Shown: positions 1,313 through 63,128 of the stretch, piece after piece
How positions within the stretch are numbered: position 1 is the stretch's first letter
Layout of the letters: each line of letters starts with the position of its first letter
DNA from: Symbiodinium natans
Lineage: Eukaryota > Sar > Dinophyceae > Suessiales > Symbiodiniaceae
Reading direction: 5' to 3'
NCBI GenBank assembly: GCA_905221605.1
Contig: CAJNDS010002823.1
Location: 591,001 to 655,000 of the forward strand
Length of the DNA stretch: 64,000 bases
Translations under genes and position numbers: made by a program
The notes under the pieces: model-generated
What the model saw: only the letters and a program-made list of their open reading frames with translations
What the model was told of the DNA's origin: nothing
Database searches by the model: none

Positions 1313-1711
1313 CCACGGCTTAGGGTCCAGGGGCCCAAGGCCCTAAAGGCGATCTTCGGTTGAGTTGGTGTGTAGCTGTTCCATCCGAAGCCTGAAGCCT
1401 CAAACCATAAGGGTTAGGGGTTTAGGGTTTAGGGCTTAGGGTTTAGGGTTTAGGGTTTGGGGTTTAGGGTTTAGGGTTTAGGGTTAACACACGGAAGTCT
1501 TGGTTCGATTTGCCAAAGAGACTCCCTCAACCACAAGGCACCTAAGACGGCTCCTTACAGGAATGAAAACCTTATTTACCCTAAAACCCGAAACCTCGGA
1601 CACAGGAGCTTGAGCTTAGGATTTAGCCCTAGACCCAAAACCCTAAACCCCAAACCCCAAACCCTAAACCCGAAACCCTGACCCTGAACCAAACCCTGAA
1701 CCCCTTAGAGC

Positions 1712-1790
1712 CTACGGGGGCCCTGCACAAGGCAGCGCCGTGCGCCTTCAGCACCGAGCTGGTGTCTGAAACAGACCTCGCTCCTGGGGG
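1712..1790. other. exon-like island, strand uncertain
   Basis: It lies between CCCTAAA repeats (1628-1700) and TTTAGGG repeats (1798-1932). Plus reading: acceptor CCTTAG|A and donor TTG|GTCTTGGG, with ALHKAAPCAFSTEL. Minus reading: acceptor CCCCAG|G and donor GTAGG, with ARSVSDTSSVLKAHG. Both are plausible. Confidence 0.35.
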
Positions 1791-1797
1791 ATTGGTC

Positions 1798-1932
1798 TTG
1801 GGTTTAGGGTTTAGGGTTTAGGGTTTAGGGTTTAGGGTTTAGGGTTTAGGGTTTAGGGTTTGGGGTTTGGGGTTTAGGGTTTAGGGTTTAGGGTTTGGCG
1901 TTTAGGGTTCAGGGTTTGGGGTTTAGGGTGTA
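1798..1932. repeat. TTTAGGG array
   Basis: About nineteen units, with TTTGGGG and TTTGGCG variants toward the right end. Confidence 0.95.
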
Positions 1933-4295
1933 GGGCTTTTGCAAGGCTAAGGGGGCTGGGGGGTTTGAGGGGTATAGAGAGACTGCCCTTTAGCTGGCCG
2001 GCTTAGGGGCTTCGTAGGGGTTTAGGGATTGGGGCTTATGAGGCTGCACCCCGCTTGCTCTCTCAAGAGACCCGTGTAAAGACTCCTCTCCACACCCAAC
2101 CACCGAACCCTCGGATAACCCCAATTCCCTAAAGCCTTTTTCCCCTGCAACCGAAACACGAAACCCTGAAACCCAAGCCTAAGTGACATGCTTCTTGGGC
2201 TCCGACAGACAAAGTTAGAGAACTTCAAGAAAACATTTGGGGGGGCCGGGGGGGGGGGGGGGGGTTGTCGAAAAGACAGGGGTTTCTCGGGTGTGGGGTG
2301 TAAACCAGGCCACGTGTGCGACTAGATGAGTTCTCCTCATAGCTTGGGGTACCAAAAAGGGTTCCTGCATTATACAACGAATTATTTTCATGTTTGAAGG
2401 TTCACAGGTTCTTCGGTATTGGGGGTTCCTGCTCAGCAGGGTAGCTGAAACAACACGCCTAACATGAGGCACGCGGGCGATCAGGATTTCGAGGCTGAGC
2501 TAACTCGAGAGACTGTGGGGGCTTAGAGTACTCGAACGCATAAGGAGCATGCAAGACTGAGACCCCCTTAAAGAAGCTCATTTGCTGGATCACCCCCCCC
2601 CCCCTCTTGGGGTGTAGTGGAGAGGTCAGGGGTTTAGTAAGACTTGCACACCCTGTAACCCTAAACCCTGAACCCTAAGTCCCATGGATCCTGTCCCTCA
2701 ACTCTATGAACCCCACACCCTAAACCCTAAACCCTAAACCCTAAACCCCAAAAACGCTCAACATCTTGGCCAGGTGGCTGGCGAAGCTCCTGCAGCTTTG
2801 AGACTTCGGGCTTAGAGCATCCGGCTTCCGGCTAAGGTTCATGGCAAGATTAGGGTTTAGGGTTTAGGGTGTAGGGTTTAGGGTTTAGGGTTTAGGGTAT
2901 TCTTCATCCCAATCATGAAAGAACCCAGCCCTACAGTACAAGTGCTGCTGTCCCTTGTGGCCACTTTGTGAGTTTGAGGGGGTGGGGGGGGTACAGACCC
3001 CTAGACAAACCTCACCGCGAAGACCTCTGATTTTGATTCAGGGCTTTGCGTGTGAGGGCGTAGGCTTTGGACTCTCAAAGGTTCAGGGTTTACGGTTTAG
3101 GGTTGTAGGGTTTGAGGGCTTTTGGCTTTGTGTTGCAGAGTCCGAAGATGGATGGTTGACAATGGTTGACACTCCAGTTTTCTGGGGCAGCTACAGGTTT
3201 AGTTTCCTTATGGGGGAACTACCCCAACATGGTTAAATGTCACGCGACTGCTCGGCAATTGCCGAAACCATAGGGAAAACGTATTATTTACAGCTCGCAT
3301 CCTCTGAGCACTACGTTTGAACTACGCCAAAGCAAAGGATACAGGGCTATCACTGGCAGTCACCAACACTGAAGAACTTGTGCAGGCTCATGCTGCTGGC
3401 GCAACAACTACCAACCTACTTAGTTGCTGCGTTCATAAGCCCCAAAAAAGTGTACACTTTCAGTTCTATAGGGGATTCTAGTATCCCAAAAAGTGTAAAG
3501 TGTGCTCACTTAGCTACTAAACCTAGCAGCACCTCAAAAGCCAACCCGTCCGATCGAACCTCGAAGCAACCCTTAGCATTCTTCTCGTTTCGAACTTTAA
3601 GGATGTCTTTCTTTCCCCTAGTTGTCCAGTAACCTGGGAGAATTAAAGGTTCACCTTTGGGATTATACGGGGATTATACTCCCCAAAAACGTTAAAGGTC
3701 ACCTACTCTACTGCTAGGTTCCTGATTTTTTCCACTCAAGTCTTATTTTCGCAGGCCGACTTGAGCCATTTTGTACCCCCGGTCGACCCACAAACCCAAG
3801 GCACAGAGGCACGGAGCTCAGCGCCGGCGCAAGTTGTCCGCATGCGTCTAGGGTTTAGGGTTTAGGGTTTAGCGTTTAGGGTTCCTGGATCCAGAGATCG
3901 CCCTGGTTCTGGGAGGGTGACCAGTGCTCCCACAACCGTCATGCCTTCACTTCCCTGGAGCTGCAGCAAGAAAGCTGCTTTGGCTGCACAACGAACTCTC
4001 GAAACCCTGCACTCTAAACCTGCAATTCCCTACTGTCCGCTCTGCCCCTCCCCCTTCTTTGTTAACCTAGCCTAGAAACCCTAGCAACCCTAAAATCCCT
4101 TAGAAACTCTAGAAACCCTAGAAACACGAAACCCTAACTAGCCAAGCGCAAAGATCATAGAAACCATCAACCCTGAAACCTAACTAACCAAGCTTAGAAA
4201 CCCTAGAAACCCTAGAAACGCTAGAAACCCTAGAAACCCGTGAAACCCTAAACCCTCAAGCAACTGCCTCCCTGATCCGTTCGGGAGACCCCAAA

Positions 4296-4421
4296 CCCTA
4301 AACCCTAAACCTAAACCTTAAACCCTAAACCCTACACCCTACACCCTAAACCCTCAACCCTAAACCCTAAACCCTAAACCCTAAACCCTAACCTAAACCC
4401 CAAACCCTAAACCCCAAACCC
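4296..4421. repeat. CCCTAAA array
   Basis: Contains CCCTACA variants; its right edge supplies the donor of the exon-like island 4420-4474. Confidence 0.9.
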
Positions 4422-4474
4422 GCCTTTTCATGGTTTGCTCGTGAAGCTGCGGCAGGTCCAGGTCGAAGGAGGAG
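4420..4474 (-). CDS. possible exon (SSFDLDLPQLHEQTMKRR)
   Basis: Acceptor CATTTAG|C and donor GG|GTTTGGGG at the edge of the array 4296-4421. Protein-like composition, no family recognised. The plus strand also has an open frame. Confidence 0.45.
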
Positions 4475-5598
4475 CTAAATGAGCCTCGCCCGACTGTAAA
4501 GGGTGTTTGAGGGTCCTTTAGGGTTAAAGGGTTTTGGGTGGTTTTAAGGGCTAAAGGTTTTCTAGGCTTTAAAGGGTGTTTTAGGGTCTGTTAGTTTTTT
4601 ACGGTGCTTAGGGTTAAAGGTTTTTAGGGTTTCAAGGGCTTTTAAGTTTTTAAGGTGCTTTAGGGCGTTTCGGGTTCAAAGGGTTTTTAGGGTTCAAAGG
4701 CTTTTTGGGGTGTTTAGGATTTAAAGGGGTTTTAGGGTGTACAGGGCTTTTGGGGTTCTAGTGTTCTTGGGATTTAGAGGTTAGAATTCAGGCTTTAGTC
4801 GGTGCCTTCTTCTATGTCATTGTTCTTTGTTTTTGGGGGCGTGAGGGGGGGTGCACGTCAGATGGTAATTTGAGGTGGTTAAATTCAATGAAGGCTTCAA
4901 GGGGTTTAGGGTTTCTGTTCCAAGGGTCTTCAAACTGGGCGTTTCAAGGTTTAGGGCTGGGGCTTAGGGCAGGGCTGAGGGTTTGTCCTTGATGTGCTTT
5001 AAGGCTGGGAATTGGAGTTTGTTAGGGGCTTACTGGGAGTGACATGTTGCTGAATGCAGGATCGACTACTCATTCATGTAAGAGTTCATGGCTGTTGACA
5101 GGAGCCCGACAGAAAAAAAACAAATTAATCAAGTGGCGCATGGTGGGTCTAGCCGATTTTCGCGACCTCAGCGGCAAGTATCAACTGCCCAACAGCACAG
5201 GGGGAAGTTAAGCCCACGTACCTGGCCAACAAGAAGCACAGACAACCTTCTTCCGCGGGCACCAGGCAACTAGCATCCGACATGCACGATACGCTCAGGT
5301 TCCAGTGCAGCTGAAGATTCATGTGGATACCTCTCGGGCGTGCGTGCTCTAGAACTCGCCCTCAGCCTGGTTGCTACAGGAAGATTTGGTGAGGGAGGGT
5401 TTCGGGGGAGGGTCTACCAGCTTCATGGACAAGCTGCTTCTCCTCCAGCGTGTCATAGCTGAAGGACAAGGGTGTGGAGGAGTTCACGGAGCTTGACCGC
5501 TCAGTGCGCAGCGTCGCCTTGTTGACGGCACATGCGGAGCGGTTTAAGGTTTAGGGTTTAGGGCTTAGGGTCTAGGGTTGGAGCGCGAGGCCCCAGTG

Positions 5599-5629
<31 letters not shown>

Positions 5630-5712
5630 AGTGGGAAGGAGCCGTGCTTTTGGGGTCCAGGGTTCAGCCTTCATACCGTACACGGAAAACCCCAAGCCCA
5701 ACTATATATTGT

Positions 5713-5854
5713 ATGTACCATATACATATATATATATATATATTATACATTATATATATATATTATATATATATATATATGTATTATATTCTATTATATT
5801 ATTATATATATATATATGTGTATGATATTATATATATATATTATTATTATTATG

Positions 5855-5905
<51 letters not shown>
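5713..5905. repeat. (TA)n and (TAT)n microsatellite
   Basis: AT-dinucleotide tract merging into a long ATT trinucleotide tract, preceded by a poly-G run at 5604-5629. Confidence 0.95.
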
Positions 5906-6029
5906 CATATGTACTACTATACCAGAATACGCCCCAGATCCTGAAACACCCGAAGCGTCAACCCTGAAGCCTTTAAAAGCCCCCTAAAGAGCAGGACGCC
6001 CAACCCTAAACCCTAAACCCCAAAGCAGG

Positions 6030-6420
6030 AGGGAGGGGAACCAGACAACCCAGACCCCGCAACTCGGGGAACCAAGGAGCAACCCAAACCAAGCGTACAG
6101 TAGCAGGCGAGGAATAGACAACCCAACTCGGCTGGAGAAAGGGGGTCTGGGATCGGAAGTAACTCATGGAGAATAAAAAAGAAACCCCGAGAAAAGGGAA
6201 GTCGAGAACTCACCAAGCGTTCTGGACAAAACCCAAGCCGGCAGGCGACGAGTCGACAACCCCAGACCTGCTGGGGGGGGTCTTAGGAGGATGGAAGGGC
6301 CTGTGGCTCGGCTCGGGCGGGGGGGTCTGGGCTAGGAAGTGGAGAAAGGAGCAATCAAGCGTTCTGGGAAAAAGCAAGGAGGCAGCCGAGGAGACGACGA
6401 CCCAGACCCCGTAACGGGCT
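6030..6420. repeat. degenerate direct repeats, no gene
   Basis: Phrases such as AAGCGTTCTGG, GGGGGTCTGGG and CAGGCGA recur two or three times at irregular spacing. The overlapping open frames look like by-products. Confidence 0.4.
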
Positions 6421-6907
6421 CAAGGCCGGACGCGAGAGCAAAGGACGAGTATGGCCAGGGCGCGAAGCGGTGTGCCACGTGCTGCAGGAGTGTTGCGCAG
6501 GTCCAGCCAAGAGATTTGGGAGTGGTGCCCGAGAACGCCAAATCGCAGGAGAACATGAGGAATGGCACTATGGCTCGGACGGGAGGGAAGGGTCGGGCGC
6601 TCGTCGACATAAGACAAGGAAGGCACTAATCCCGACCACCCACACAACCCAGACAGCCCGAACACAACCCCGCTTTGGCTCTGCTTGCCAGTGCTGCCAC
6701 TATTTTCGAATGGTGCAATTTTTTTAATTGCCACTGTTTGGATTGTACTTGCGAGACCGAAAAGGGCCTCTGGAGCTTTGTACCCCGGCGTTCCCACCGA
6801 TGTGAAGGTGTGGCCTCATCCAGCGCAACCGACTGCAACCACTATATAATAACCTACTGTCGAAAGGTGGAGGATTAGAACAACCCTCTAATGATCCTGT
6901 CTGCGGC

Positions 6908-7614
6908 TGACGCCATCACAGCGCTTGCTGAGGCCGAAATCCGAGGCCTTTGCGTGTCCCCCGCGCATCCAGGAGCACGTTCGCCGGCTTCATGTCCCGT
7001 GGTCGAGGGCCTCGGTCAGGCAGGCCACATGGAACCTGACGCTTGGGAGGTTGCCTCGGTGGCCTTGCCAGTGGTAGAAGGTGTGCAGATCTCCACCGGG
7101 CGCCACCTCCAGAAAAGGTACACATTCTCGGCGTCCCGGAACGTGGGCACCAGGATGCCACGAAACTGGAAGATCGCAGCCGCCTCTGGATGTCAACCTC
7201 GCGAAGAAGGTAAGACTCCATCTGGAGGGTGCTCCACCCGTAGCGCTCGCCGGTCGGGCCGTGCTCCTGGAGGCTGACGCTTCCGAACCGGCCGGTGCCA
7301 AGCAGGCCGAGCTCCCGCAAATCGGCCCTCCTCGGCGGACCTGGTCTTGGCCTGGCGCTTCTGAGCCGCCAGCTGCTTCACCACATCACTTAAATTGCGC
7401 TCCAAGCCGGTCTTGTCGAGGCGTCAAGGGCCATGTTCCAGCCACGGCCAGCTTCGCCGCTTGCCTCCGCGCACGGGCCTGGCACATGGCTGCCAGCGTT
7501 GCAGGCCATGCCTCACACACTGCCATTGCTCGGAGACGTAAGGCGTGATTGTATCAGAGCCTACTGTCGCGATGTTGCATTCACAACTCAAGCTTGAGCC
7601 AAAATGGCTACGGA
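6908..7614 (-). pseudogene. processed pseudogene of a Ser/Thr protein kinase with DinoSL relic
   Basis: Seen on the minus strand: DinoSL at its 5' end, then no introns, then kinase landmarks in order but in different frames: glycine loop LGTGRFGSV (about 7302-7276), FLEVAPGGDLHTFYH in a second frame, RDMKPANVLLD (about 6999-6967), and DFGLSK around 6941-6927 after another shift. The lysine region after the G-loop is damaged. The pattern resembles AGC/cGMP-dependent kinases (inference). An SL joined to an intronless, frameshifted coding sequence is what a reverse-transcribed, reinserted mRNA looks like. The catalytic domain ends soon after DFG, so it is also 3'-truncated. Confidence 0.8.
7593..7614 (-). 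other. dinoflagellate spliced-leader (DinoSL) sequence
   Basis: The minus strand reads TCCGTAGCCATTTTGGCTCA followed by AG: the full 22-nt DinoSL with T at the variable first position. It is not followed by a GT donor (the next bases are CTTGAG), so it is not an SL RNA gene but the fossil 5' end of a trans-spliced mRNA. Confidence 0.9.
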
Positions 7615-7989
7615 CAAGCTCGAATCCCTAAACCAAGTCCTGTATAGTCCCAAGTGGCGTAGTCCTCATCCGGATGGAGCGAAGGCTGCGTGATCTGCGG
7701 CGGTGGGAGGCGTGCTATAAGCAGGGTTCTAAGTGCCCTAAAATACGGTTGTAGCCGCTTTTATTTTCGAGTTACCCTACTTATAACCCCACTCATAACT
7801 ACCCAAATGGGGGTTTCCAAAAATAGGTATAATCCTGATTATAGGAACCCCCAAAAGGGTACCCCTATTTGGGGAAAGCCCCAAATGAACCTCCAAGTGG
7901 GATCTAGGGGTCGTCGGGTCTGAAAGCTCTGACAAGCATGTCGCGAGACCTTTTGATTTGCTTGAACTTTTGGGCCCAAACGTCCCATG

Positions 7990-8089
7990 TTGGGATGTTC
8001 CCCCTAATACTAACAGTCCTTCATAGGGAATATAGTACCCCCTCTTATAATCCCTATTTTGGACTATAGTCGTTTGAGGGGAACATAAC
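7990..8089. mobile_element. inverted-repeat element, family T1 (GGGATGTTCCCCC termini)
   Basis: About 100 bp with GGGATGTTCCCC at the left and GAGGGGAACAT at the right. It is flanked by a 12-bp direct repeat AAACGTCCCATG (7978-7989 and 8090-8101), which suggests insertion. No coding capacity, so a non-autonomous MITE-like element. Confidence 0.6.
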
Positions 8090-8583
8090 AAACGTCCCAT
8101 GCCTTGAGTAGCCCCTACCCAGGGCCGGATAAAATCCCACTCAGCGGAGTCGGGTTGCTGACTTAGTTGGGGAGTCTTGGCACAAGAAGCCGTTGAATCA
8201 AGCCATGTGTGGGAACACAGTTCCCTCTCGTAACAGACTCCTGATAAGCAAAGAGGTCTCGTCTTCTTCAGAACAACCCCCATGATCGAACTAGGTCCCA
8301 ATGAATCCCAAAAGGAGCTCTAGATCCCAAACCCTAAAGTCTAGACCCCTAAACCCTAAGCCACAAAAATCACATATCTAGAGCCTTATACCCCCCTGTA
8401 CACCCCCCAAAGTCACATATACCCCCTAAACCCTGATAATACCTCATATAATCCCTTAGAAGCCCCCAATAACCCCTTATGCAGCCTAAATCCCCAAACA
8501 GACCCCGAAACCCTAAACCCTACGTAATCCCTAAACCCTAAACCCTAAACCCCAAACCCTAAACCCTGAAGGAGACCCAACAC

Positions 8584-8641
8584 TGGGGATCGGAGCCATG
8601 TCGGCAAGCTCCAGGTCGGTGCTCATCGGTGACCTCCGGAG
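8584..8641 (-). CDS. possible exon (SPMSTDLELADMAPIP)
   Basis: Nineteen codons with G/C third positions. Acceptor GAAAG|C, donor A|GTGTTGGG. Flanked by CCCTAAA (8510-8572) and TTTAGGG (8657-8782). It is downstream of the stop at 9884, so it would belong to another gene. Confidence 0.4.
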
Positions 8642-8656
8642 CTTTCTTTTGTTTTG

Positions 8657-8782
8657 TTAGGGTTTAGGGTTTAGGGTTTAAGGTTTAGGGTTTAGGGTTT
8701 AGGATTTAGGGTTTAGGGTTTAGGGTTTAGGGTTTAGGGTTTAGGGTTTGGGGTTTGGGGTTTGGGGTTTAGGGTTTGGGGT
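8657..8782. repeat. TTTAGGG array
   Basis: About seventeen units ending in TTTGGGG variants. Confidence 0.95.
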
Positions 8783-9883
8783 ATGTGTAAGTTATGTTGT
8801 ATCAACTAAATCAAATTACTGCTACTGTATCTTGCTGTGACCCGAGGAAGAGCAACATTTCTTGCAGATCCCTGTCAGGGTCCAAGTACCTCACCTTTTA
8901 CATACTTGGGCCCCAAGCCCTAGCTATATGGGAGGAAATTTAAGGCCCAAGTATTCCCTATTGAGGCACCTAATCCCTGGACCCTAAAGCCTAAACCCCC
9001 AAAAGGGCACTTTTTGCGGGGATGATGAGGGCTTAGGGTTTGGGGTCCTCCGGGTTCAGGATGTGGCTTCGTTCAGAGTTGCGGCTTAAGGCCTGTACTT
9101 GGAGGTTCCTGGTCACAGAAAAGTAGGGTTATAAGCAGGGCAACCACGCTTGCAGCCTTACTTGGGATACTTATAACCCTACTCCATGACCTACCAGTAC
9201 TCCTTAAGATGTCCCGAGTTGCGATTTGACGCTTAGGCTCTTAAGGTCCAAAGAAGGCTCTTGGGTATTCGGGGTTTAAGATCGGACGATGCGTATGTCT
9301 GCCTAGGCTTTTCAGACCTTCTTGCGCTGATACCTCTTGGAGATTAAAGCCCTGCAGCCTACAGCCTCAACCCTAGATTGGCCTGGGCCTCTGGTTGATT
9401 TTTAGGACCTCCCCCAAGAGGGCCCACTCAAACAACAATCATGGGATGATGTACCCAAAGCCCTTTCTACAGTTCAACTCAGAAACTATCTATCTGCTTT
9501 CCCCTGTCTCTATATGTACGCATGTATATATCAACTAAGGTATGCAGATGTTTCTCAGGGTTTGCTGCAATTGCTGCCGATACTACAAGATCTGCGGGCA
9601 GGGAAGGATGTTGGCTTCCAAAAGGCCAATGCAGGATGTTAGAGCAGCAAGCCTCAACAGAGGAGAACTGGATGCAGGTGAAACACATGCCAAAAAGTCC
9701 AGTCCGGAACGCAGGACGACTGTGGTTGCTTTCTTTCGTCATGTAACTGCTATGACCAAAGTTAAGAAACCTTGTATGATTCTTCTTCTTCTTATGATTA
9801 TCATTACTATGATTGTTTAAAATGTTGTTTAGTTTTTAATTCATTTATGAATTTATGTGGCTTTGTTGTAATTGCAAGTGCGA

Positions 9884-9992
9884 CTATTGTCCGTGAAGTC
9901 GCAAAACGTCTCTCCATCCGAGATGCGATGGCATCGGCTTGTACTTCGCCAGGGAGTCCGGGCTCGACTCCACCTTGCGCGCAAGGCGCACC
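9884..9992 (-). CDS. probable terminal exon with stop (VRLARKVESSPDSL...)
   Basis: Acceptor ATTTTAG|G just inside a TTTAGGG array (10004-10050), then 35 codons with strongly G/C third positions and a TAG at 9884-9886. AT-rich sequence follows (9780-9880), as expected of a 3' UTR, and no CCCTAAA array follows. Assignment as the CLC C-terminus is by position only. Confidence 0.5.
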
Positions 9993-10646
9993 CTAAAATT
10001 CGTTAGGGTTTAGGGTTTAGGGTTTAGGGTCTAGGGTCTAGGGTTTAGGGCATGTACCTCATAACTATACACTTGGGCCCCAAAGTCCCCTATATAGGAG
10101 GTACTTTTAAGGCTCAATTGTCTACTCCGTATCCCCAAAAGGATGCCTATACACACTCACCAATAGCAGAATTACAGAGCACCCAACATGGAAAGCTGTT
10201 GACCCTTCGGCTCATACCCCAACTCCTGACCCAAAGGGTCCACCGCTCGGGAAGCAGGTGCCAAGCAGCACTATCGAGCCCCGGGTGCCTAATGCCCTAA
10301 ACCCTAAACCTCTAAACCCTAAGCCCTAAAAATCTCATTCTCTACCATTTGCTTAAGAACCGCACAAGAGTAAAAGAAACAAAGATCTCTTTATTATACC
10401 CTTAATAAGGAGACATGCTTTTTTGCTTTTCCGGGGTTCTTGAGCAATTGGTAGTCCTACGTGAACAAGCCTCTGCCCCACCTCCCCGCCAGTTAACGAC
10501 CACTCACATGGTAAGACTAGACCTTTGGCAACATGCAGAGGGGGTTAGACCTTGGACATTGCTAGGTTGCCCAGTCAGCTAGGATTAACAAAGGGTGCCC
10601 GTGTTTTGCTTGAAGGGGTTTATAAGGGAACTAAGCCCCCCGCTCC

Positions 10647-10677
<31 letters not shown>

Positions 10678-39234: not shown

Positions 39235-39289
39235 CTGATTTCTTTTCTTGAGGGTTTCGGGTTTAGGGTTTAGGGTTTAGGGTTCTCTC

Positions 39290-42713: not shown

Positions 42714-42734
42714 CTTGGCTCAGGGTGATGAGAT

Positions 42735-43265: not shown

Positions 43266-43562
43266 CCCCTAAACCCTAAACTCCTGAACCCCGAAACCCT
43301 AAACCCCTAGTTAAACCCCTGAACGCCTAAACCCCGAAACCCCGAAACCCCTAAACCCCTAAACCCCGAAACCCCTAAACCCCTAAACCCCTAAACCCCC
43401 AAAACCCTAAACCCCTAAACCCCTAAACCCCTCAACCCCTCAACCCCTAAACCCCGAAACCCCTAAACCCTAAACCCCTAAACCTCGAAACCCCTAAACC
43501 CCTAAACCCCAAAACCCCTAAACCCTAAACCCTAAACCCCTAAACCCTAAACCCTAAACCCC
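43266..43562. repeat. CCCCTAAA eight-base variant array
   Basis: About 300 bp of CCCCTAAA and CCCCGAAA. This is a different eight-base variant from 24655-25055, so each array looks locally homogenised. Confidence 0.95.
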
Positions 43563-43685
43563 CCAAACAGTATGGGGTACATGGACCCTTCAGGGCTCCC
43601 AAAACAAAACCCTCCCCACTCCCCCAGGGCTTTTGTCAGCAGAACCTGGGCATGAACCCGGAAACCCTTCTTTGCTTTACCTACT

Positions 43686-43772
43686 AAAGATATATAATCC
43701 CTATATTCCCAATTTAGGGTTTTTTTTACTAAAGATAATAATCCCTATATTCCCAATTTAGGGTTTTTTTTA
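43686..43772. repeat. tandem duplication of about 46 bp
   Basis: ACTAAAGATA...AATCCCTATATTCCC followed by a T-run, present twice in tandem and related to the T5 interior. Confidence 0.7.
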
Positions 43773-44837: not shown

Positions 44838-44898
44838 TTCAGTATATTATATATATATATTATTATTATTATTATTACGTATTATTATTATTATTATA
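44838..44898. repeat. (AT)n/(ATT)n microsatellite
   Basis: Short AT run followed by two ATT runs. Confidence 0.9.
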
Positions 44899-45419
44899 TT
44901 ATTTCATCGCGTCATGTCGGCTTGGGGCGTGAGGGTATGTGTTGCCGTTGCTGGGTGCTGAGAGCCGAGGCCAACAGATCGTGCAAACAGCGGAGTGCGG
45001 GGCTCTAAATTCTAGGGCCTTGGGGAACTTCTATACTCGAAAACCTAAGGCGCTCTTGGTGAAATGAACGCCTCAGCATCATCCTGTAGCAGGTCCTTAC
45101 GCTACAACTCGCGACAGCTAGGGGGACCTATACTGAGTATACTAGGGGATAGGATTAGGGGGACCCTTGGGGATATAGACCCTCTGAATAAGGTCTCTGT
45201 TTAAGAGAGCCAGAAGAGGGTAAAGAAGGGGTTCCCTTTTAAGGGTCCCCCTTATCCTACCTAGGATATACATTGCCACTTGTGCCACCTATGAAACGAT
45301 GCTGCTGAGAAATGCATGGTGCCACCTCTGAAACAAACCCTAAACCCTAAACCCTAAACCCTAAACCCTAAACCCTAAACCCTAAACCCTAAACCCCCCC
45401 GCCCCCCCCCCCCCTGCAG

Positions 45420-45502
45420 CCAGGGGCATGCTGAGCCACAAGGAAGTCACTTTATCGGCGTATCAGCATCGGCTTTGTCAGGACCCGCCTTTCATCAACC
45501 GG
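45420..45502 (+). CDS. exon of an unknown plus-strand gene (MLSHKEVTLSAYQHRLCQDP)
   Basis: Canonical structure: CCCTAAA array, poly-C tract ending CTGCAG|, 27 open codons, then CGG|GTTTAGGGTTTAGGG. The minus strand is closed here, so strand is clear. It ends in phase 0 and continues in frame into 45581. No family recognised. Confidence 0.6.
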
Positions 45503-45580
45503 GTTTAGGGTTTAGGGTTTGGGGTTTAGGGTTTCCTTCATCCTCATCTGGGGCTGAGAAAACAATTATGGGGTCTTCAG

Positions 45581-45724
45581 GCTGAAGCTGTGGGTTATTC
45601 AGGGCCCATGGAGCTCTACAAGAATGCTCCAAACCAGCCTCCGTTCCACCCCCTAATGACCCTCAACCCCGCGTCTGTGCCGCCGCACCTGGATCTCGCT
45701 GATCTCAACTTCCTCGGACCCTAA
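45581..45724 (+). CDS. probable terminal exon of the same plus-strand gene
   Basis: Acceptor GTCTTCAG|G, 47 codons including MELYKNAPNQPPFHPLM and LDLADLNFLGP, then a TAA at 45722. Phase 0 matches the previous exon. CCCTAAA repeats follow the stop, so it might instead be an internal exon. Together the two exons give 75 residues of proline-rich, soluble-looking sequence. Confidence 0.5.
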   Translation, partial: AEAVGYSGPMELYKNAPNQPPFHPLMTLNPASVPPHLDLADLNFLGP

Positions 45725-46112
45725 ACCCTAAACCCTAAACCAGGAGCCGCGCCATGTTGGGTCTCAGGGCTTTGGGGGTGGGGACTTCAGGGCTTCGGGT
45801 CCACGTTGGCTGCTGAATATGTTGCTGTTTAGGGGGGGGGGGGGGCGTTGGAGCATCCACGGGAAGCCCTACGCATCCCCTTCGTGCAGTTCCTGCAACC
45901 AAACAGTGAGGCGACCGAAGCAGGAGTTCCGCGCCGGAGGCAACAAGAAATGCCAACAGCGACAATTTTCAACTTAGAATGTTACCATGTATCTACAAAT
46001 CTGCAAAAATCATAACTGGCTATAGCCGCAGTTAGGGCACTCTTTAAACCCTACTTATACCTACCCATGAACCTTCGAGTATGCATTGAACCTTCGAGTA
46101 TGCATTGGGCAC

Positions 46113-46177
46113 GGGGCATAGCAGCCGCGTCCGAGGGCTCGCATGAGCGGCTCCCCAAAGCGCGCCCGCACCTGCTG
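46113..46177 (-). CDS. probable exon (VRARFGEPLMRALGRGCYA)
   Basis: Twenty-one codons with very high G/C at third positions. Acceptor CTCGAAG|C; donor CC|GTGCCC. An inverted-repeat element end (ACTCGAAGGTTCA) begins within about ten bases of the donor. No family recognised. Confidence 0.5.
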
Positions 46178-46263
46178 CTTCGAGAGCCAAAACCCATGCG
46201 TGGCAACCCTAAACCCTAAACCCTAAGCCCTGAACCCTGAACCCTAAACCCTAAATCCAACAA

Positions 46264-46378
46264 ATGGGGGTTTACGATCTTCGCGGTACCTTGTTGGGGT
46301 CCAATATGAAAAGGGGATCCTGCTACTTGGGGTCTATACGAGGGGCCCCTTAAGCCTTCATATCGTAAACCCCCAAAT
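46264..46378. repeat. inverted repeat (GGGGGTTTACGAT termini)
   Basis: ATGGGGGTTTACGAT and ATCGTAAACCCCC close a 115-bp element containing nested inverted pieces. Confidence 0.55.
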
Positions 46379-46393
46379 CCCACAGGATCCACG

Positions 46394-46493
46394 TACTTGG
46401 AGGTTTATCGCCAGGTCGAGGTAGGGCTAGATGTACCAAAAAAAGGCTGTAGCTAGAGCTATCCTACTTACAACTACCCATGAAGCTCCGAGT
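46394..46493. mobile_element. family T3 copy
   Basis: ACTTGGAGGTTTAT at the left, ACTACCCATGAAGCTCCGAGT at the right (one end base change per arm). Confidence 0.55.
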
Positions 46494-47313
46494 ATGGTAA
46501 TCTCACGAAAGCAACTGGGCACAACAAATCATGCTAGATAGGGCTGCTGGAACTTCGGAACCTAACTCCATGGTATAGGGGCCTTAATGATTTTGGGATG
46601 GGGTCTTGGGGTTCACATCGGGACCATACGGGAAGACTGGTAGTATTTAGTTGAAGCCCTCAAACATGGAAGCCTTCATGCGAACTTGTTACCGGGTAAC
46701 TGCTTTTTGCTTCAGGAACGCCCCTCAACATATTCTGCCTTTTAAGGGCAAATATAGGGATTATTGTCTTGTTTCTTAGGTATCCTGTGGGGTTGGGAGT
46801 TCCAGGAAAATTTTCAATAGCCCTAAGCGCAAACAACTTCCGACCGAGATGCACCGGTACCAGGATGGTCATGGTTGGACGTAAAAAAATGTCGGGCAAT
46901 TGAAGGCACAACTGTTTACAGCCTTTATGCAGGCTACGCCGAACCCTACGTCTAACTCCTCATGAACCATCGTTGGCCCTAAGCCCTAAGCCCTAAACCC
47001 TAGACCCTAAACCCTAAACCCTACTTGGAGGTTTACGGGTACTTCTAAGTAGGGATATAACTACCCCACGTAAGGTCGTAACTGCTACCCTACCTATGTA
47101 CCATAACCCCTGCCGCCTAAACCCCGCAAACTGTGCAAAAGGGGCTGTCGCGACTTATCGGCCAAAAAGGTCTGGGGCTTCTGTGTCTCACAACCTTGCC
47201 CAAACACCTCAAAGACTCCCAAAACCCCAAAGGACTCTGAACCCTAAACCCTAAACCCTAAACCCTAAACCACTAACCCAAACTTCAACCCCCAAGCCCG
47301 AACTAGGTTGAGC

Positions 47314-47373
47314 CCCCGCCTTCTCCAGCGCAGGCGCCTGCGCGTCGGAGGCGCGGAAGGTCAGGAAGACCAC
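47314..47373 (-). CDS. probable exon (VVFLTFRASDAQAPALEKAG)
   Basis: Twenty codons, 19 ending in G or C, the clearest coding bias in the window. Acceptor CGACCAG|G, GC donor (GGG|GCTCAACC). CCCTAAA repeats on the left, TTTAGGG-like on the right. It could share a gene with 46113 and 48401. Confidence 0.55.
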
Positions 47374-48190
47374 CTGGTCGTTGGGTTTCGGGTTTAGGGT
47401 TTGGGGTTTAGGGTTTCCGGTTCAGGGTTTAGGGTTGGAGCTTCGGGTTTGGGACTTTTTTGAGGTTTCGGGCTTAGGTCTTAGGTGCTTCTACTGATGG
47501 CGTTGAGGCTTTGAGGTTTGTTGTGAGGTACGGGGCTCTTTCAGGAGCAGTGGTTCTAGTGTAGGGGCTCCTAAACCCTAAACCCTAAGCCCTAAACCCT
47601 GGGGGCCAAACCTCCAGAACCCAAAGTGACTCGACGGTTCGAGGGATCCTGACTCCATCCGGGGATCCTAACACATCCAAAGGCTTTAGGGCTTATGAGG
47701 TATTAGGGTTTAGGGTAGGATTAGGGTTTAGGGTTTTGAGGGCATAGAGGGTGTCTAGGGTATGGTATATACGGTATATGGGGTATTCAGGGTGTATCGG
47801 GTATACAGGGTATAGTATAAGGGGTATAGGGAAACAGGGTATACAGGGCATGCAGGGTTTAGGGTCTATGGTAGAGGAAGTCCTCTAAAGCCCAAGTATA
47901 CCCTGTTTAGGTCCACACGGGCTCTTAGCGCGTCAGGAGACCTAAGTCAGCACAGGGGACAAGTGTACCATAGCAGGGACATGCCTGGCGCTATACTAAC
48001 CAACCCTAAACCCTAAACCCTAAACCCTAACCCAAAACCCTAAACCAGAACACCGCCAGGTCGACAACCCCAAAAAAGAGCAAAGGCGGAAACACAATAC
48101 AAGTACCAACCTGCTTCATCTTAGGTCTTCCACCCTACTGTCCCACACCCACTCCAAAACCACTCCAAAAAGAAGCACAAAGAACTCAAG

Positions 48191-48295
48191 TAGGGATGTT
48201 CTCCCCTCATACGAACAGTCGTTAATGATTAGGGATTGTAGTGCCCCGTGCTATAATCCCTAAGAAGTACTGTTGGTATAAGGGGGAACATCCCA
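48191..48295. mobile_element. family T1 copy
   Basis: Starts GGGATGTTCTCCCC and ends GGGGGAACATCCC, with the shared internal AACAGTC...AATCCCTA core. Confidence 0.6.
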
Positions 48296-48400
48296 ACCCT
48301 AAACCCTCAACCCTAAACCCTGAACCCCTTCGGAAGACTCAACCCTAAACCCCAGACCCCAAACCCTAAACCCTGAGCCCTAAACCCTAAACCCTGAAGC

Positions 48401-48498
48401 CAAGGCCCTTGCCGTATTCACGCAGACGAAGGCCAGTAGGAGGTAGATCACCTGGCTCGCGCGATCGGCAGGTACCTCAGAATGCAGGCCCCGCATCG
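48401..48498 (-). CDS. probable exon with a membrane segment (VIYLLLAFVCVNTARAL)
   Basis: Thirty-two codons, largely G/C-ending. Acceptor TCCTTAG|C and GC donor (TTG|GCTTCAGGGTTTAGGG) leading into array repeats; TTTAGGG repeats on the other side. It contains one hydrophobic helix. Protein unknown. Confidence 0.55.
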
Positions 48499-48778
48499 CT
48501 AAGGATTTTAGGGTTTAGGGTTTAGGGTTTGACAGTTGCAGAGTTATGCAGCTTATGACGAGAGTTCGTAGACTAGGGTGTAGTCCATGTGCTAGTGTCG
48601 ACGCCGTGGAAGTGATCTCATGTTGCGGAATTTTGGGAATGACAGAGCCCGAAACACTGAATCCTAAACGCTAAACCCTGAACCCTAACCCCCTCAAACC
48701 CTTGCAGAGCCCAAAGTCCTGAAGCCTTTCCTCAGTTCCCTAGGGATCCGATGAGGGTTTCAGGTTCAGGGTTTAGGG

Positions 48779-48985
48779 TTGGGGTGTTCCCCTTTATACG
48801 AACAGTCCTTAATAGGGATTATAACAGGGGGTACTATAATGACTGTTAGCTAGGCTGCCCAGTAACCTAGGCTTAAAAAGGGTGCCCTTTTTTGCTTAAA
48901 GGGGTTTACAAGGGAGTCTAAACCCCCCAAAAAGGGAATAAGTATACTACTGGGCATCCTAGTTAGTATAAGGGGGAGCATCCCA
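48779..48985. mobile_element. family T1 copy interrupted by a T2 element
   Basis: Left arm at 48779-48849 and right arm at 48963-48985 belong together. The middle is a complete T2 element. Confidence 0.65.
48850..48962. mobile_element. inverted-repeat element, family T2, nested in T1
   Basis: CTAGGCTGCCCAGTA at one end and the complementary TACTGGGCATCCTAG at the other, with TTAG repeated at both junctions. Internal sequence TTAAAAAGGGTGCCCTTTTT. Confidence 0.65.
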
Positions 48986-49427
48986 AGTTTAGGGTGTAAT
49001 TAGGGTTTAGGGTTAGCGTGCTGCCTTCTTTGGCTTTCAGAAGGGCTTTGACAAGGAATTTGGACCCCAAAGAGGAGAAGGGTATGACTGTGCCTCCTAG
49101 AGCCCTTAATCGTAAAAAAGCCTAGGTCGTAAACCCAAGGATTGGCTTTAGTCCTTATAAACCCTAAGCAACGAACCCTGAACTTCTGCACACCAACCCC
49201 CTCCCCAACACAAAAAGGAAGGAAGCAAGGTGCTGTGCCTACAGCTAGCAACTGCGGCATCCTATGAATGGCACCCGAAAGCCCATTCCGCCCCCCCCCC
49301 CCCCCCCCCCCCCCGAACCCCTAAACCCAAACCCTACAAAAAGGGGATGAGGGTGCTCAGAAACCCAATCCTGAATAAGCCCCAAACCCTGAACCCTAAA
49401 CCCTAAACCCTAGATCCTTCATCCCAG

Positions 49428-49520
49428 CTCTCCGAGCGTATCCTCCCCAAAGCTCCCGGAAGGCGCACCGCAAGCAAGCTCAGTGCGGCCTTTGCAAGTG
49501 GCTTCTACTTTTTGTTGTGA
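49428..49520 (+). CDS. possible terminal exon (LSERILPKAPGRRTASKL)
   Basis: Acceptor CTTCATCCCAG|C after a CCCTAAA array, 30 codons and TGA, followed by an AT-rich tract that could be a 3' UTR. Confidence 0.45.
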   Translation, partial: LSERILPKAPGRRTASKLSAAFASGFYFLL

Positions 49521-50199
49521 CATATACATATATATTTATATATGTATTTTCAAAAAAGTTTTGTAAGGGAACCTAAACCCCCCCCCACCAAGGGAATAAG
49601 CGCACTAGTGGGCAGCCTAGATATGGTCGGTTCTCAAACTTATGGTCCCTTTTTGGGTACCCTGAATGATAGGGGCCGCCTTATGATAAGGATCCCAAAA
49701 AGGACCACAATTGAGAAGACTCATGATGTTTTCATACTATGATTCTCTATATGAATAATGATACCAATTACAATATTGTGGTTCCAAAGGCCGGGTTTGG
49801 GTTTAGGACTCTAGTTTATCCTTCAGTTGGTAGAAATTACCCCTCCTTAGCTACGTGGTGGAACCCACTAAAGCTGCAGGAATCCCGGGCAGTCTTGAAC
49901 AACCCTTAACGCCAAGCCCCACACCCTAAACCCTAAACCATAGGGGTTAAACCCTAAACCCTAAACCCATGGACCGAACTCCAAGATACCAAAACCTTAT
50001 ATCCTGGTTTAGGGTTTAGGGTTTAGGGTTTAGGGTTTAGGGTTTAGGAGCTCGAAAGACCGAGTGCTGTAGCACAAGTTGGCATCGACCCTCGGCTTCT
50101 GAACATTCGGGCATGTTTCCCTGCCCTGCTGCAGCACCCTTTTGGTGCTTGTACCTTGTGCTTGATGCGCGCGAACATTCTTTCATGCACCTTCAGGTT

Positions 50200-50460
50200 C
50201 GGGTTCTTGGGTGTAAAACGTTGGAATATTCTGAACAGTTTCGTAATCAGATACGAATATGACAAAGGATATAAAGCAACGAAGAATAGGTCAGATCACT
50301 ACCGCTGCTGCTATTGCCAATGGCGTTCATAACGCGAATAATACTGATATAACCACGAGAGTATGAATAACTTGGATACTCTGAGTATTCCAAACATTAT
50401 GACGATTGTCATAACCCGTATTCACTACTACTAATGATATGTCTTTGATAATCTAGGGCT
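50200..50460. other. AT-rich island, nothing recognised
   Basis: Low-GC unique sequence between array-rich blocks. Similar islands are at 30830-31290 and 54150-54370. Confidence 0.5.
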
Positions 50461-50607
50461 CAGGGTTTGAGGCTTCTAGAATTCGGGCTTAGTGTCGAGG
50501 GTCAGGGCTCAGATTATAAGTTGGGACGTTCCCCCTTTCTCTAACAGTCCTTTTCGTATGGGTTCTAGTAGGGGGGGTACTATAATCCCCATTAAGGACA
50601 GCCCCCT

Positions 50608-50702
50608 GGTTCTTAGTTGGGGAACGAGGGAGTAAGGGCCCCCTATGTACCCTTTAAGGGCTTGTATAGGGTACCTCATTCCCTGATTCCCAACTAAGAA
50701 CC
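50608..50702. mobile_element. inverted-repeat element nested in a T1-like element
   Basis: GGTTCTTAGTTGGGGA at the left and TCCCAACTAAGAACC at the right, inside a T1-like sequence beginning GGGACGTTCCCCC at 50523. Confidence 0.55.
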
Positions 50703-50767
50703 AGCCAGACTGCGATTGGTTTAGGTAGGGACTCGGGGGCCGGACCGGCTTCCCGCCACTCCTGAGA

Positions 50768-50908
50768 AGGGTTTAGGGTTTAGGTTTCAGGTTAGGGTTT
50801 AGGGCTTAGGGCTTAGGGCTTAGGGCTTAGGGCTTAGGGTTTAGGGTTTAGGGTTTAGGGTTTAGGGTTTAGGGTTTAGGGTTTAGGGTTTAGGGTTTAG
50901 GGTTTCGA
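50768..50908. repeat. TTTAGGG array with a CTTAGGG sub-block
   Basis: Five or so GCTTAGG units followed by perfect TTTAGGG units. Confidence 0.9.
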
Positions 50909-51116
50909 AGGTGGGTTGCAACCTCGGGCTACAGGGTTGACCCTAAGCCCTAAACCCTGAACTTAACCCCCTAACCCTAACCCCTGAACCCTCTCGCTCT
51001 GCCCGAAAGGTCCACATCACGGCAAGGCGAAAACCTGAAGCCCAAGAACAGCTTGTCACGGCCTCAGCAAGGAATGTTCTGGGGTCATTCTGGGATCTGG
51101 GCTGAAGATCACACCC

Positions 51117-51149
<33 letters not shown>

Positions 51150-51677
51150 ACCTAAACCGAAACACGACTCAGGCGGAGAGAAAATCAAAGAGCACCAGCG
51201 TCGAACCATGTCGAACCCCACAAGCCCAAGCCATGAGCCGGAGTCCTGTGAGAACCAGCAGCGGATGAGCCCTGGCGCAAAGGGTGGGTGGGTGGGTGGG
51301 GGATATAGGGTGGGCAAGGGATTTGGAGGGGTTGAGGTTGAGGACTTTGAAACTTGGCGCTTGCGGCGAACCCTATAACATGAAGCCTATGAACGCTACA
51401 CCCTGCAAACCCTAAACCCTAAACATCCTCAAACCCTAAACCCTAAACATCCCTAAACCCTAAACCCTAAACCCTAAATCCCAAACCCCAAACCCTCAAC
51501 GCATGCGCTTCTCCACTCCCGTCCTGCGGAGCTAGGCTGCCTCAGAGAAGCGCCAACTGAAGGATTTGGGGTTTAGGGCTTAGGGGTTTAGTAGTTAGTA
51601 GGGTTTAGGGTTTAGGGTTTAGGGTTTAGGGTTTAGGGTTGAGGGTTGAGGGTTTAGGGTTTAGGGTTTAGGCAGGG

Positions 51678-51757
51678 GATCCGAAGTATGGGCCCCCAAC
51701 TTGGGTCCCCTAACCCTTCTATACACTATGCAGAATAAGGGCCCATACTTCGGATCC
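51678..51757. repeat. perfect 19-bp inverted repeat hairpin
   Basis: GGATCCGAAGTATGGGCCC and its exact complement 40 bp apart, directly after a TTTAGGG array. Confidence 0.65.
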
Positions 51758-52348
51758 CGGTAAATCCCCTTGAACAAGGGTAAGGGACCATACTCAGGGC
51801 CCATGGTTCCAACCTTAGATTAGGGCTTAAGGGGGTTTAGGAGTTTAGGGTTTAGGATTTGGGGTGTCGGGTTTAGGGCTTAAGGGGATTTTAGGAGTTT
51901 AGGGGTTAGGATTTGGTTTAGGGTTTAGGATTTAAGGGCTTCGTCATGGGATTCGGTCTACGCAAAGCCATAGTAGAAGGGCTTTTGGTACCTTACTCCA
52001 GACTCGGAAAAAAGTGGGACCCTCTTGGGTGTGTAGCCTAGTACAGATCCTACAGAACTCGGCGAACATACCCACCAGAAAACCAACGGAGCCTATTGCC
52101 ATGAATTAGGGCCCCCTTGGTTATAGGGTTCTTAGAAAAGGGGGTTCAAGGGGGGTAGGCAAATCAAGGGTTCAAAAACTCCCTACTACCCCTAAAGCTC
52201 CCTACCCCCTCCCCCAAGAACCTTAACCCTAAACCCTAAACCCGAAACCTATATCTTGGGGCTACTTTTGCACAAGGAAGTTCTAACTGCAACCCACATA
52301 AAAGCGGCAGGAGACTCACAGGTACACTTATCCAGGGATGGCCAGCCG

Positions 52349-52467
52349 TAAACCCTAAACCCTAAACCCTAAACCCTAAACCCTAAACCCTAAACCCTAA
52401 ACCCTAAACCCTAAACCCTAAACCCTAAACCCTAAACCCTAAACCCTAAACCCTAAACCCTAAACCC
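52349..52467. repeat. CCCTAAA array
   Basis: About seventeen perfect units, followed by a poly-C tract. Confidence 0.95.
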
Positions 52468-53118
52468 TCACCCCCCTCCCCCCCCCCCGCCCCAACAAAA
52501 GCAACTCTAGACCTAAAGGCCCTACATGGATTCCCGGCAGCTCAAAAAGCCTTCAACATGAGTACCGGAAGCTTTAAACTAGGGGGTTTTAGGGTTTTAG
52601 GGTTTAGGACCAACAATCACACATAAAGATAAGGATTCTACAAACAGGGTTTAGGGCTTAGGGTTGTCCAGAATCCCACTTATCGGGGGCCCTTCTACCC
52701 CAATAGTAGGATCCTTATGATTATGTGGTCTTTGGGCCCGTATAGAGCCCTAATGACACAGCACAGCCTCCTGGTAAACCAGCACCCTTGGCCCGTAACA
52801 CGAAAGCTTGTCTGCGGGGATTAGAAGCAGGCGGGCTGTAGGGCCATGAAGTACTTTTAACTTTGGCCTGCTTGTCCATTGTGCTCCCCACCCCCCATTC
52901 CCCCCACGAGGGTTCGTCTGAAACCCTACTCATAACGCAAAATGGGATGCTTCAAGATGATGATGCCGTTTTGGGTACTTACCCGGAGGGGTCCCATTCA
53001 TCACTAAGCCACAAGAGCAAGCAGGGGCCCTACATGGGGTGTTTGTCTGAACCGTACACAGAGGGTGACCCAAAACGGCCCCACATCTTCGAGAATCCCT
53101 AAGCCCTAAACCCTAAAC

Positions 53119-53184
53119 CCTGGGCCGCCCGTCGCTGGAGTTGCTCTCGGAGGCGGTCGTTCTGCGAGTTCAGCGCCGCCTCCG
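53119..53184 (-). CDS. probable exon encoding coiled coil (ALNSQNDRLREQLQRRAAQ)
   Basis: Acceptor AACCCAG|C, donor AGG|GTTTAGGG. Twenty-one codons with G/C third positions and heptad-like L/N/L spacing. CCCTAAA on the left, TTTAGGG on the right. Confidence 0.6.
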
Positions 53185-54488
53185 CTGGGTTTGGAGGTTT
53201 AGGGTTTATAGGTTTAGGGTTTAGGGGTTTAGGGTTTAGGGTTTAGGGTGCTTTTTGGCTTTTTGGAAGGATTTGTGGGGTTTGGGGGGTAGTTTAGGGG
53301 TTTAGGGGCTCAAGGTGACAGGGGAGGTTTGATGGGTCGGAGTTTCAAGAAGCTTGGGGCTGGGGGAAATAGTACGTAGGAAGGTGTCCGGCTTCTGTCG
53401 ACGCCTTGGACGAATGGGCAGACAGGGAGAGAGAGAACGACCGAGATAGTGACAGAGAGGGACAAGAGACAGTGAGACAGCGGCGGAGAGATAGAGAAGG
53501 GCACGGGTTGGGATGTTTCCCCTTTTTCTAACGAAGGGTGCCCCGCCGTGGGCGACCACAATCTGAATGTCAGGATCAGGGGTGGTTGACCCCCCCCCGC
53601 ACCCGGCCCCCCCCGCCCCTGTCCCACACCCCCCCCCTCTGCCCCTTTGCGGGTTTGGCTTGAACCTTGAACCCCAAACCCAAAAACACGAAACCCCAAA
53701 CCGTGAACCTTGAGCCCTAAACCCTCAACCCTTAACTAACCCTCAACCCTAAACCCCAAACCATAAACCATAAACCCGGAACCCTAAACCCTAAACCCAA
53801 CCATTATTGCTTGGGGTCCAGCGACTTGGGCGCTACGGAATCACCATGCTCACGCGGATGCGCTGGGCCGGGCCGAGGCAGGTCGCGTAGCGATAATCCC
53901 TGCCAAGGAGCTGTGAGTAGAAGGGGGAACATCCCAGGGCGTTTAGGGTTTAGGGTTTAGGGTTTAGGGTTTAGGGTTTAGGGCTGATCAGAGTTGAAGC
54001 CCCAGCCTCGGCCGATCGTACATCTGCCTCGGTTCACCGTCGTTTGGGAGCTGGCTGATGGCACTCCCGGAGCCCTTTTGGATTTCGGGTTTCGGTTTTG
54101 GGGTTTAGGGTTTAGGGTTTGGGGTTTAGGGTTTAGGGTTTAGCACTTCAATGACACCATTTGCCCTAGAGGCCTCAATAAGATGGAAAAAATCAGTTGG
54201 TAATCATACTCATCATGAAACACTTAAACAAAGACTGACAATACCAATGGAGCGTTGAAAATGACTTTGATAGTACCAACATATTCATAAGCATTAATAT
54301 TGCCAAGAATGTTACAGAACATTCAGAATACTGATAACCAGACTCTTACTAACCTTGAGAAAAATTAAACCCTAAACCCTGAACCCTAACCCCCCCCCCC
54401 CCTCCAAGCCCAAGGACAGGATGTGTTGTGCTGCCCAGCTTCTCAGGTTCCGTGGCTTTAGGGCCTAGGGTTTAGACATGGTTTTGAG
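53185..54488. other. arrays, split T1 ends and ambiguous islands
   Basis: T1-like ends at 53508-53533 and 53914-53936; islands at 53.82-53.88 and 54.0-54.08 kb are open on one or both strands, some with stops. AT-rich from 54150 to 54370. Confidence 0.35.
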
Positions 54489-54539
54489 CCTGAGCCTTAT
54501 GTACAAGCGGCCCGGGCCACCTCGGCCCACGGAAGTGCG
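54489..54539 (+). CDS. possible exon just upstream of the copia insertion (PEPYVQAARATSAHGSA)
   Basis: Acceptor TTTTGAG|C, donor GCG|GTTTAGGG. The donor is the start of the TTTAGGG array into which the retrotransposon inserted 40 bp further on. If real, the element sits inside an intron. Confidence 0.35.
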
Positions 54540-54573
54540 GTTTAGGGTTTAGGGTTTAGGGTTTAGGGTTTAG

Positions 54574-63127: not shown

Positions 63128-63128
63128 A

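Follow-up and report, generated by a model that had tools for sequence, protein, structure and literature searches.

The 64,000-nucleotide stretch of the Symbiodinium natans genome analyzed here (contig CAJNDS010002823.1, positions 591,001 to 655,000; referred to below as the window) contains one minus-strand CLC chloride channel gene of ∼53 kb, split into tiny exons, and a Copia element. In this gene, the short islands flanked by inverted telomere-type arrays are exons; the arrays themselves are telomere repeats of the interstitial kind, which fill introns in those S. natans genes that are rich in them. The arrays lie in one polarity relative to splicing, with TTTAGGG following donors and CCCTAAA preceding acceptors on the transcript strand, and are enriched 20 to 100 nt from the splice sites. 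Arrays on either side of a given exon were found to match, but those at opposite ends of a given intron did not. This orderly CCCTAAA-exon-TTTAGGG pattern was observed in several genes. Its cause is not yet settled between the readings weighed below; insertion of telomere repeats followed by exon-centered sorting is put at a little under an even chance.

The exon map was made by spliced alignment in which the arrays were given no weight. Peptides joined from the minus-strand islands matched P0121, a chloride channel of S. natans (PF00654), with an E value of 5e-61; the same peptides gave no match in a Pfam search, and their best E value in a PDB search was 0.01. Residues 1 to 578 of P0121, a protein of 584 residues, were placed on the minus strand as exons 37 to 77, with 578/578 identical. 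The N-terminal part of the gene was mapped through weaker homology to P0124 (148/272 identical). Exons 37 to 77 measured 7 to 80 nt, with a median of 39 nt, and the introns between them had a median of 813 nt. The donors of these 40 introns were GC (28), GT (9), and GA (3), and 38/40 acceptors read AG/G, in agreement with the dinoflagellate donor and acceptor pattern tabulated in PMC10666404 (here and below, papers are cited from excerpts). No array overlapped any of exons 33 to 77. The 40-intron set starts at exon 37, leaving out introns 33 to 36, where some fillers are 3 to 11 nt, and everything upstream. The relatives P0122 (505 amino acids, contig of 1,542 bases) and P0123 (666 amino acids, 2,104 bases) lie on contigs that barely exceed the coding sequence, which suggests that these contigs are transcripts.

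Arrays had to hold 13 nt or more of perfect repeat, with gaps of up to 20 merged; they are called T for TTTAGGG and C for CCCTAAA. The window holds 163 arrays (76 T and 87 C). Neighbors in the order C then T and less than 200 bp apart numbered 36, compared with 23.0 on average and at most 35 in 10,000 label shuffles, while the opposite order was found 12 times; for gaps of 100 to 150 bp, the counts were 22 and 4, respectively. The C-island-T arrangement reported at 13 places in the initial annotation of this stretch is therefore real, with 12 of the places on the strict island list; at the 4.45-kb place the right-hand repeat is degenerate. That these islands are exons was borne out for 11 of the 13, securely for eight (1.75, 4.45, 8.6, 12.8, 18.9, 25.1, 35.1, and 35.57 kb, by P0121) and by the weaker P0124 homology for those at 39.2, 48.4, and 53.15 kb, but not for those at 45.45 and 47.3 kb, where no exon was mapped. 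Per base, the coding signal was higher in islands than in other inter-array intervals of 60 to 300 bp (p = 2e-7, or 0.002 with the raw score), using a codon table drawn from the Copia frame. In the securely mapped part of the gene, 14/21 islands contained an exon compared with 4/32 other short intervals (Fisher, 8e-5); the corresponding figures for the N-terminal part were 4/15 and 2/22, and some islands lacked an exon in both parts.

Array direction was then scored within 60 nt of each splice site on the transcript strand, with T5 and C5 denoting T and C arrays past the donor and C3 and T3 those ahead of the acceptor. The 40 secure introns gave T5 22, C5 2, C3 17, and T3 7, while the means over shifts of the exon map were 7.3, 6.5, 6.5, and 7.4, respectively. 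The oriented score was 30, against a mean of 0 (standard deviation 4.7, maximum 15) in 2,838 circular shifts of the map. The signal therefore consists of an enrichment of arrays facing the right way, with wrong-way arrays near acceptors at background. The low number of C arrays near donors, reached in 55/2,838 shifts, is partly expected, since T arrays already occupy those places. The arrays peaked 20 to 60 nt past the donor and 20 to 100 nt ahead of the acceptor. Ten exons counted apart showed T 7 and C 0 within 100 nt on the donor side and C 5 and T 3 on the acceptor side; exon 37 is counted both among these ten and in the 40-intron set. Polarization of the arrays relative to splicing was thus upheld by the counts and shifts. 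The initial annotation's description of introns as opening with UUUAGGG and closing with CCCUAAA held as to polarity, but both ends together carried the repeats within 60 nt in only 10/40 introns. No clear branch-point motif was found ahead of the acceptors that lack a C array.

The pattern extended beyond the locus, as judged from 73 introns of seven other loci and from 20 other stretches. The seven loci gave T5 14, C5 0, C3 17, and T3 6, with an oriented score of 25 against −0.4 (standard deviation 5.2, maximum 14 in 400 shifts); without the weakest locus and exons below 20 nt, 48 introns remained, with T5 6, C5 0, C3 9, and T3 3. Two loci, L170 and L171, were modeled on proteins of the same contig (553/577 and 394/400 identical), and L172, L173, L174, and L175 on relatives (269/352, 315/448, 402/551, and 142/154 identical). 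The exon ranges judged reliable were 1 to 22 in L170, 7 to 19 in L171, 13 to 20 in L172, 9 to 20 in L173, 6 to 10 in L174, and 20 to 26 in L175; all were picked from exon lists without the arrays displayed, and those of L173 and L175 include doubtful exons of 2 to 19 nt. The locus at 377 to 394 kb of contig C1424 is a paralogue of P0193 (225/358 residues identical, 63%); 13 of its 34 modeled exons were used, in a range picked after a table that displayed the arrays too, and its 12 introns gave T5 6, C3 7, and T3 1. The 20 stretches were taken regardless of genes; two adjoin the window and one is mostly N. Nine had no array, and the rest gave 22 C-then-T pairs against 4 in the opposite order at gaps of 100 to 150 bp. 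Their total below 200 bp was 34, equal to the maximum of 2,000 shuffles (mean, 22.0).

Over the whole assembly (759 Mb, 2,543 contigs), (TTTAGGG)4 matched 853,942 times on one strand and 852,709 times on the other, overlaps counted (∼1.7 million in all), compared with 21 and 10 for the reversed control. The pair pattern had no match in the viral and bacterial/archaeal collections; plain (TTTAGGG)4 was found there in 9 viral stretches and at least 119 others, and the most arrays in one locus was five among the 128 matches listed. The related channel genes fell into two classes, array-free genes with mostly short introns (L170, L173, and L174) and array-rich genes with longer introns (L171, L172, L175, and L179/L180). 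Joining L179 and L180 gave one intron of 2,198 nt (12250 to 14448) containing two TTTAGGG and then fourteen CCCTAAA arrays.

Exon-level matching was examined in five array-rich loci pooled, the CLC gene included (77 introns and 72 exons flanked on both sides), with T flags shuffled within loci; the 36 introns of L170, L173, and L174, being array-free and so uninformative, stood outside this test. A C array upstream and a T array downstream of one exon were found 21 times within 60 nt, compared with 15.0 expected (p = 0.004), and 29 times within 100 nt, compared with 21.2 (0/3,000 shuffles; p = 0.0003 in a second run). Same-direction pairs around exons tended to be scarce. T-T pairs at 60, 100, and 150 nt numbered 2, 6, and 8 against 4.5, 9.0, and 12.2 expected (p = 0.07, 0.08, and 0.02), and C-C pairs 1, 1, and 4 against 0.8, 4.2, and 7.1 (p = 0.83, 0.018, and 0.055). 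The reverse complementary order, T-exon-C, numbered 0, 2, and 7 against 0.3, 1.7, and 3.6 (p = 0.03 at 150 nt only).

Matching of this kind was not seen between the ends of one intron. In the same five loci, a T start and a C end co-occurred at chance level (15 against 16.0 at 60 nt, 22 against 22.4 at 100 nt). An association did appear when loci with and without arrays were pooled (odds 3.2, p = 0.005 at 100 nt), which is attributed to the mixture of loci because it was gone within loci. The ends of an intron bound each other no better than swapped ends (p = 0.35 to 0.70; 40 introns, or 38 for the widest window), and folding with real rather than random array directions brought splice sites no closer (22 introns, p = 0.97; energy, p = 0.37). 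The initial annotation had also suggested that the two ends of an intron can pair and, as one of two options, that telomeric repeats were selected to bring splice sites together; matching of intron ends for pairing found no support in co-occurrence, swapped ends, or folding, and the bringing together of splice sites found none in the folding test.

The explanation tentatively preferred is that insertion of telomere repeats acted as the supply and that an exon-centered constraint, an RNA stem or factor binding, sorted the arrays by direction. The supply would have come from telomerase-type or break-repair insertion, with expansion afterwards. Among runs with clean flanks, 55/201 end in TTTAGGG at the 3′ edge and 51/211 start with GGG at the 5′ edge, where ∼15 to 16% is expected; by set, the bias was weak at the 3′ edge in the window (p = 0.04) and absent at the 5′ edge in the other stretches (p = 0.20). 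The constraint would most likely take one of two forms. Upstream CCCUAAA and downstream UUUAGGG might form a stem whose loop of ∼107 nt holds the tiny exon and both splice sites, or the two strands might bind splicing factors; either way, the exon would be defined as a unit. A fold with at least 20 pairs across the exon was predicted in 31/31 C-exon-T cases, which, because the repeats are complementary, is no evidence of use. Proteins of the hnRNP A1 type have UAGGG as a motif, and other factors bind runs rich in C; factor binding is therefore an alternative equal to the stem. The most ambitious form of this explanation holds that the telomere repeat, with telomerase as its source, has been turned genome-wide into a mark for exons, with CCCUAAA ahead of them and UUUAGGG behind, by which tiny exons with weak GC, GT, or GA donors are recognized as units through a stem loop or paired factors; taken jointly, these claims are unlikely.

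Several observations weigh against exon-centered sorting. T arrays lie close ahead of acceptors at the background rate (7 against 7.4), so the polarity rule is loose, and the counted introns of L170, L173, and L174 lack arrays altogether, a sharp difference between genes. The loci of the exon-level test, five in all, had been picked for having arrays, and only 21/72 of their exons carry a C-T pair within 60 nt. For the CLC gene alone, the exon effect was weak at 60 nt (Fisher, p = 0.33), with p values of 0.05, 0.09, 0.02, and 0.004 at 80, 100, 120, and 150 nt. Exons with a pair were not clearly shorter (48 against 57 nt, p = 0.15), and GC donors were no richer in T arrays within 100 nt (25/47) than GT (9/19) or GA donors (7/10). 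Stems across exons are described as a cause of exon skipping (PMC9198270). Finally, T precedes C inside introns in 120 against 25 ordered pairs, which a purely exon-centered rule does not need. With one vote per intron the order was 29 against 6 (p = 0.0001). For arrays at least 100 nt away from both splice sites, the count was 37 against 8 by pairs but 7 against 3 by introns (p = 0.34); the T-then-C order thus holds for whole introns, while that of their interiors is not settled.

That intron order is among the observations accounted for if the arrays are break-repair scars only, a reading considered somewhat unlikely. Breaks within introns would have been trimmed and healed by telomerase, leaving TTTAGGG at the end of the upstream piece and CCCTAAA at the start of the downstream one; recurrent events would erode introns to the minimum of ∼20 to 30 nt that splicing needs, and the polarity would be a functionless by-product. 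The polarity, the GGG edges of the runs, the abundance of arrays, and their distance of 20 to 60 nt would all follow, and telomere repeats are known to enter at double-strand breaks in mammals (PMC7215372). However, one break exposes both ends of an intron, so T5 and C3 would be expected to co-occur, which they did not beyond chance, and scars give no reason for the matching across exons.

A compositional side effect, by which introns start G rich and end C rich and telomere repeats happen to fit, is improbable. Repeat-masked GC skew at 10 to 100 nt did have the same sign but was weak (means of 0.13 and −0.15; p = 0.03 and 0.009), and the 13 introns lacking a T array had a 5′ skew of 0.15 to 0.19; the skew was not significant in those 13 introns (p = 0.08) or in the 14 without a C array (p = 0.25), and cross-exon matching is left unexplained.

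It is very improbable that a UUUAGGG start and a CCCUAAA end form a stem joining the splice sites of one intron, comparable to zebrafish dinucleotide repeats. The polarity is as such a stem requires, and precedents exist in zebrafish (PMC9198270) and in the both-end inverted repeats of Amoebophrya and Prorocentrum (PMC7789003, PMC10666404), but apart from the pooled association, neither co-occurrence within loci nor any gain in own-end binding or folding was observed. Least probable of all is an introner-like mobile element with telomere-repeat ends of which each intron is an old copy, since, despite inverted repeats close to intron ends and introners reported from dinoflagellates (PMC10666404), there was no target-site duplication (75/160 matching bases against 73.2 expected, over four bases in 40 introns), only 34 matches of 28 to 116 bp inside the masked window, and no own-end complementarity.

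Dinoflagellate genes of this type have very many tiny exons with mostly non-canonical donors, and how such exons are recognized is a puzzle. A repeat whose direction marks exons would give a testable handle on it, and if exon marking is true, telomere repeats shape gene structure beyond chromosome ends. If the arrays are repair scars only, they would still be a readable record of intron breaks healed.

Features of the window, with coordinates counted from its first nucleotide.
Feature	Position	Strand	Basis or remark
CLC chloride channel gene, PF00654 family	334..53184	-	Spliced alignment to P0121 (exons 37-77); upstream part to P0124, less reliable
Copia LTR (long terminal repeat) retrotransposon	54579..63356	-	Two identical 228-bp LTRs; inserted inside a TTTAGGG array
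Island 1.75 kb: exon 76 (1746-1783)	1672..1799	-	Plus strand: C array left, T array right
4.45 kb: exon 74	4424..4484	-	Clear array on left side only
Island 8.6 kb: exon 70 (8597-8633)	8568..8656	-	Exon map
Island 12.8 kb: exon 67 (12773-12832)	12762..12850	-	Exon map
Island 18.9 kb: exon 60 (18874-18920)	18843..18949	-	Exon map
Exon 57 (20733-20783)	20665..20861	-	Arrays of 66 nt and 55 nt either side; predicted stem −108.3 kcal/mol, z −8.8
Island: exon 55 (22192-22257)	22165..22293	-	Exon map
Island 25.1 kb: exon 52 (25090-25117)	25054..25136	-	Exon map
Island 35.1 kb: exon 41 (35101-35139)	35081..35205	-	Exon map
Island 35.57 kb: exon 40 (35549-35595)	35544..35627	-	Exon map
Island 39.2 kb: exon 32 (39173-39234)	39156..39258	-	Homology to P0124
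Island 45.45 kb: no exon mapped	45397..45500		
Island 47.3 kb: no exon mapped	47272..47389		Open minus frame within
Island 48.4 kb: exon 17 (48413-48451)	48396..48506	-	Homology to P0124
Island 53.15 kb: exon 8 (53129-53184)	53122..53195	-	Homology to P0124

Some further features of the gene and its introns were observed. The donors of introns 37 to 76 share an extended motif, with C at +5 (29/40), G at +8 (30/40), and G at +9 (25/40); C-Y-N-G-G at +5 to +9 was present at 16/40 donors compared with 67/5,340 other GC, GT, or GA sites in the same introns, and the donors of L170 to L175 resemble it. Two candidate micro-exons on the minus strand, very short at 7 nt (26803 to 26809) and 11 nt (2779 to 2789), both lie within C-T islands. 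Short repeats of 28 to 116 bp are common to introns in both directions, for example at 7986 to 8085, 19001 to 19108, 33544 to 33656, and 48187 to 48294. An open minus frame at 6916 to 7377 looks by eye like a protein kinase fragment, with a Pfam match below the cutoff (E value of 0.07).

The Copia insertion is flanked by what appears by eye to be a 5-bp duplication, GGTTT. The element's frame of 2,771 codons has a reverse transcriptase match just below the Pfam cutoff; it also resembles the Tet_JBP oxygenase domain, in a weak match that likewise stays under the cutoff. The best relatives of the frame are Symbiodinium proteins, with 77% to Symbiodinium sp. CCMP2592, and a search of the protein against viral contigs gave no match.

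No description of inverted telomere arrays around exons was found in excerpts of the open-licence PMC literature (including PMC9860276 and PMC9977717), which does not establish absence from print. Several known systems are partly similar. The 163 arrays lie at a non-terminal site, as interstitial telomeric sequences do, the window being inside a contig of 1.14 Mb. As in mammals, the telomere repeats are internal and many are in introns; in mammals, the repeat and the broken end often share the same register, and the human intron share of 31% fits random insertion (PMC7215372), whereas here position and direction follow the exons, as the 40-intron and seven-locus shifts indicate.

The introners of Amoebophrya and Prorocentrum cordatum (PMC7789003, PMC10666404) are a similar case from dinoflagellates, in that simple inverted repeats lie close to either end of the intron; the main paper on dinoflagellate introners, by Roy and others in 2023, is summarized in PMC11453091. 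Their repeats are 8 to 20 nt, lie within one intron, and come with direct repeats of 3 to 5 nt. In contrast, the S. natans repeat is telomeric, peaks 20 to 100 nt inside the intron, and is matched across exons; matched intron ends of the introner type were not seen in the co-occurrence and swapped-end comparisons, although the search rule specific to that type, a distance of at most 30 nt from the intron ends, was not used. The complementary dinucleotide repeats of zebrafish are also simple repeats polarized relative to splicing, but they occupy opposite ends of one intron and allow splicing without U2AF2 (PMC9198270), while here the two ends do not co-occur beyond chance. Exon-flanking inverted repeats, known from looping-out and circular RNA, are similar in that complementary repeats stand on both sides of one exon, here above chance. 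The known examples promote skipping or circles (PMC9198270), whereas the exons described here encode residues throughout the predicted channel protein.

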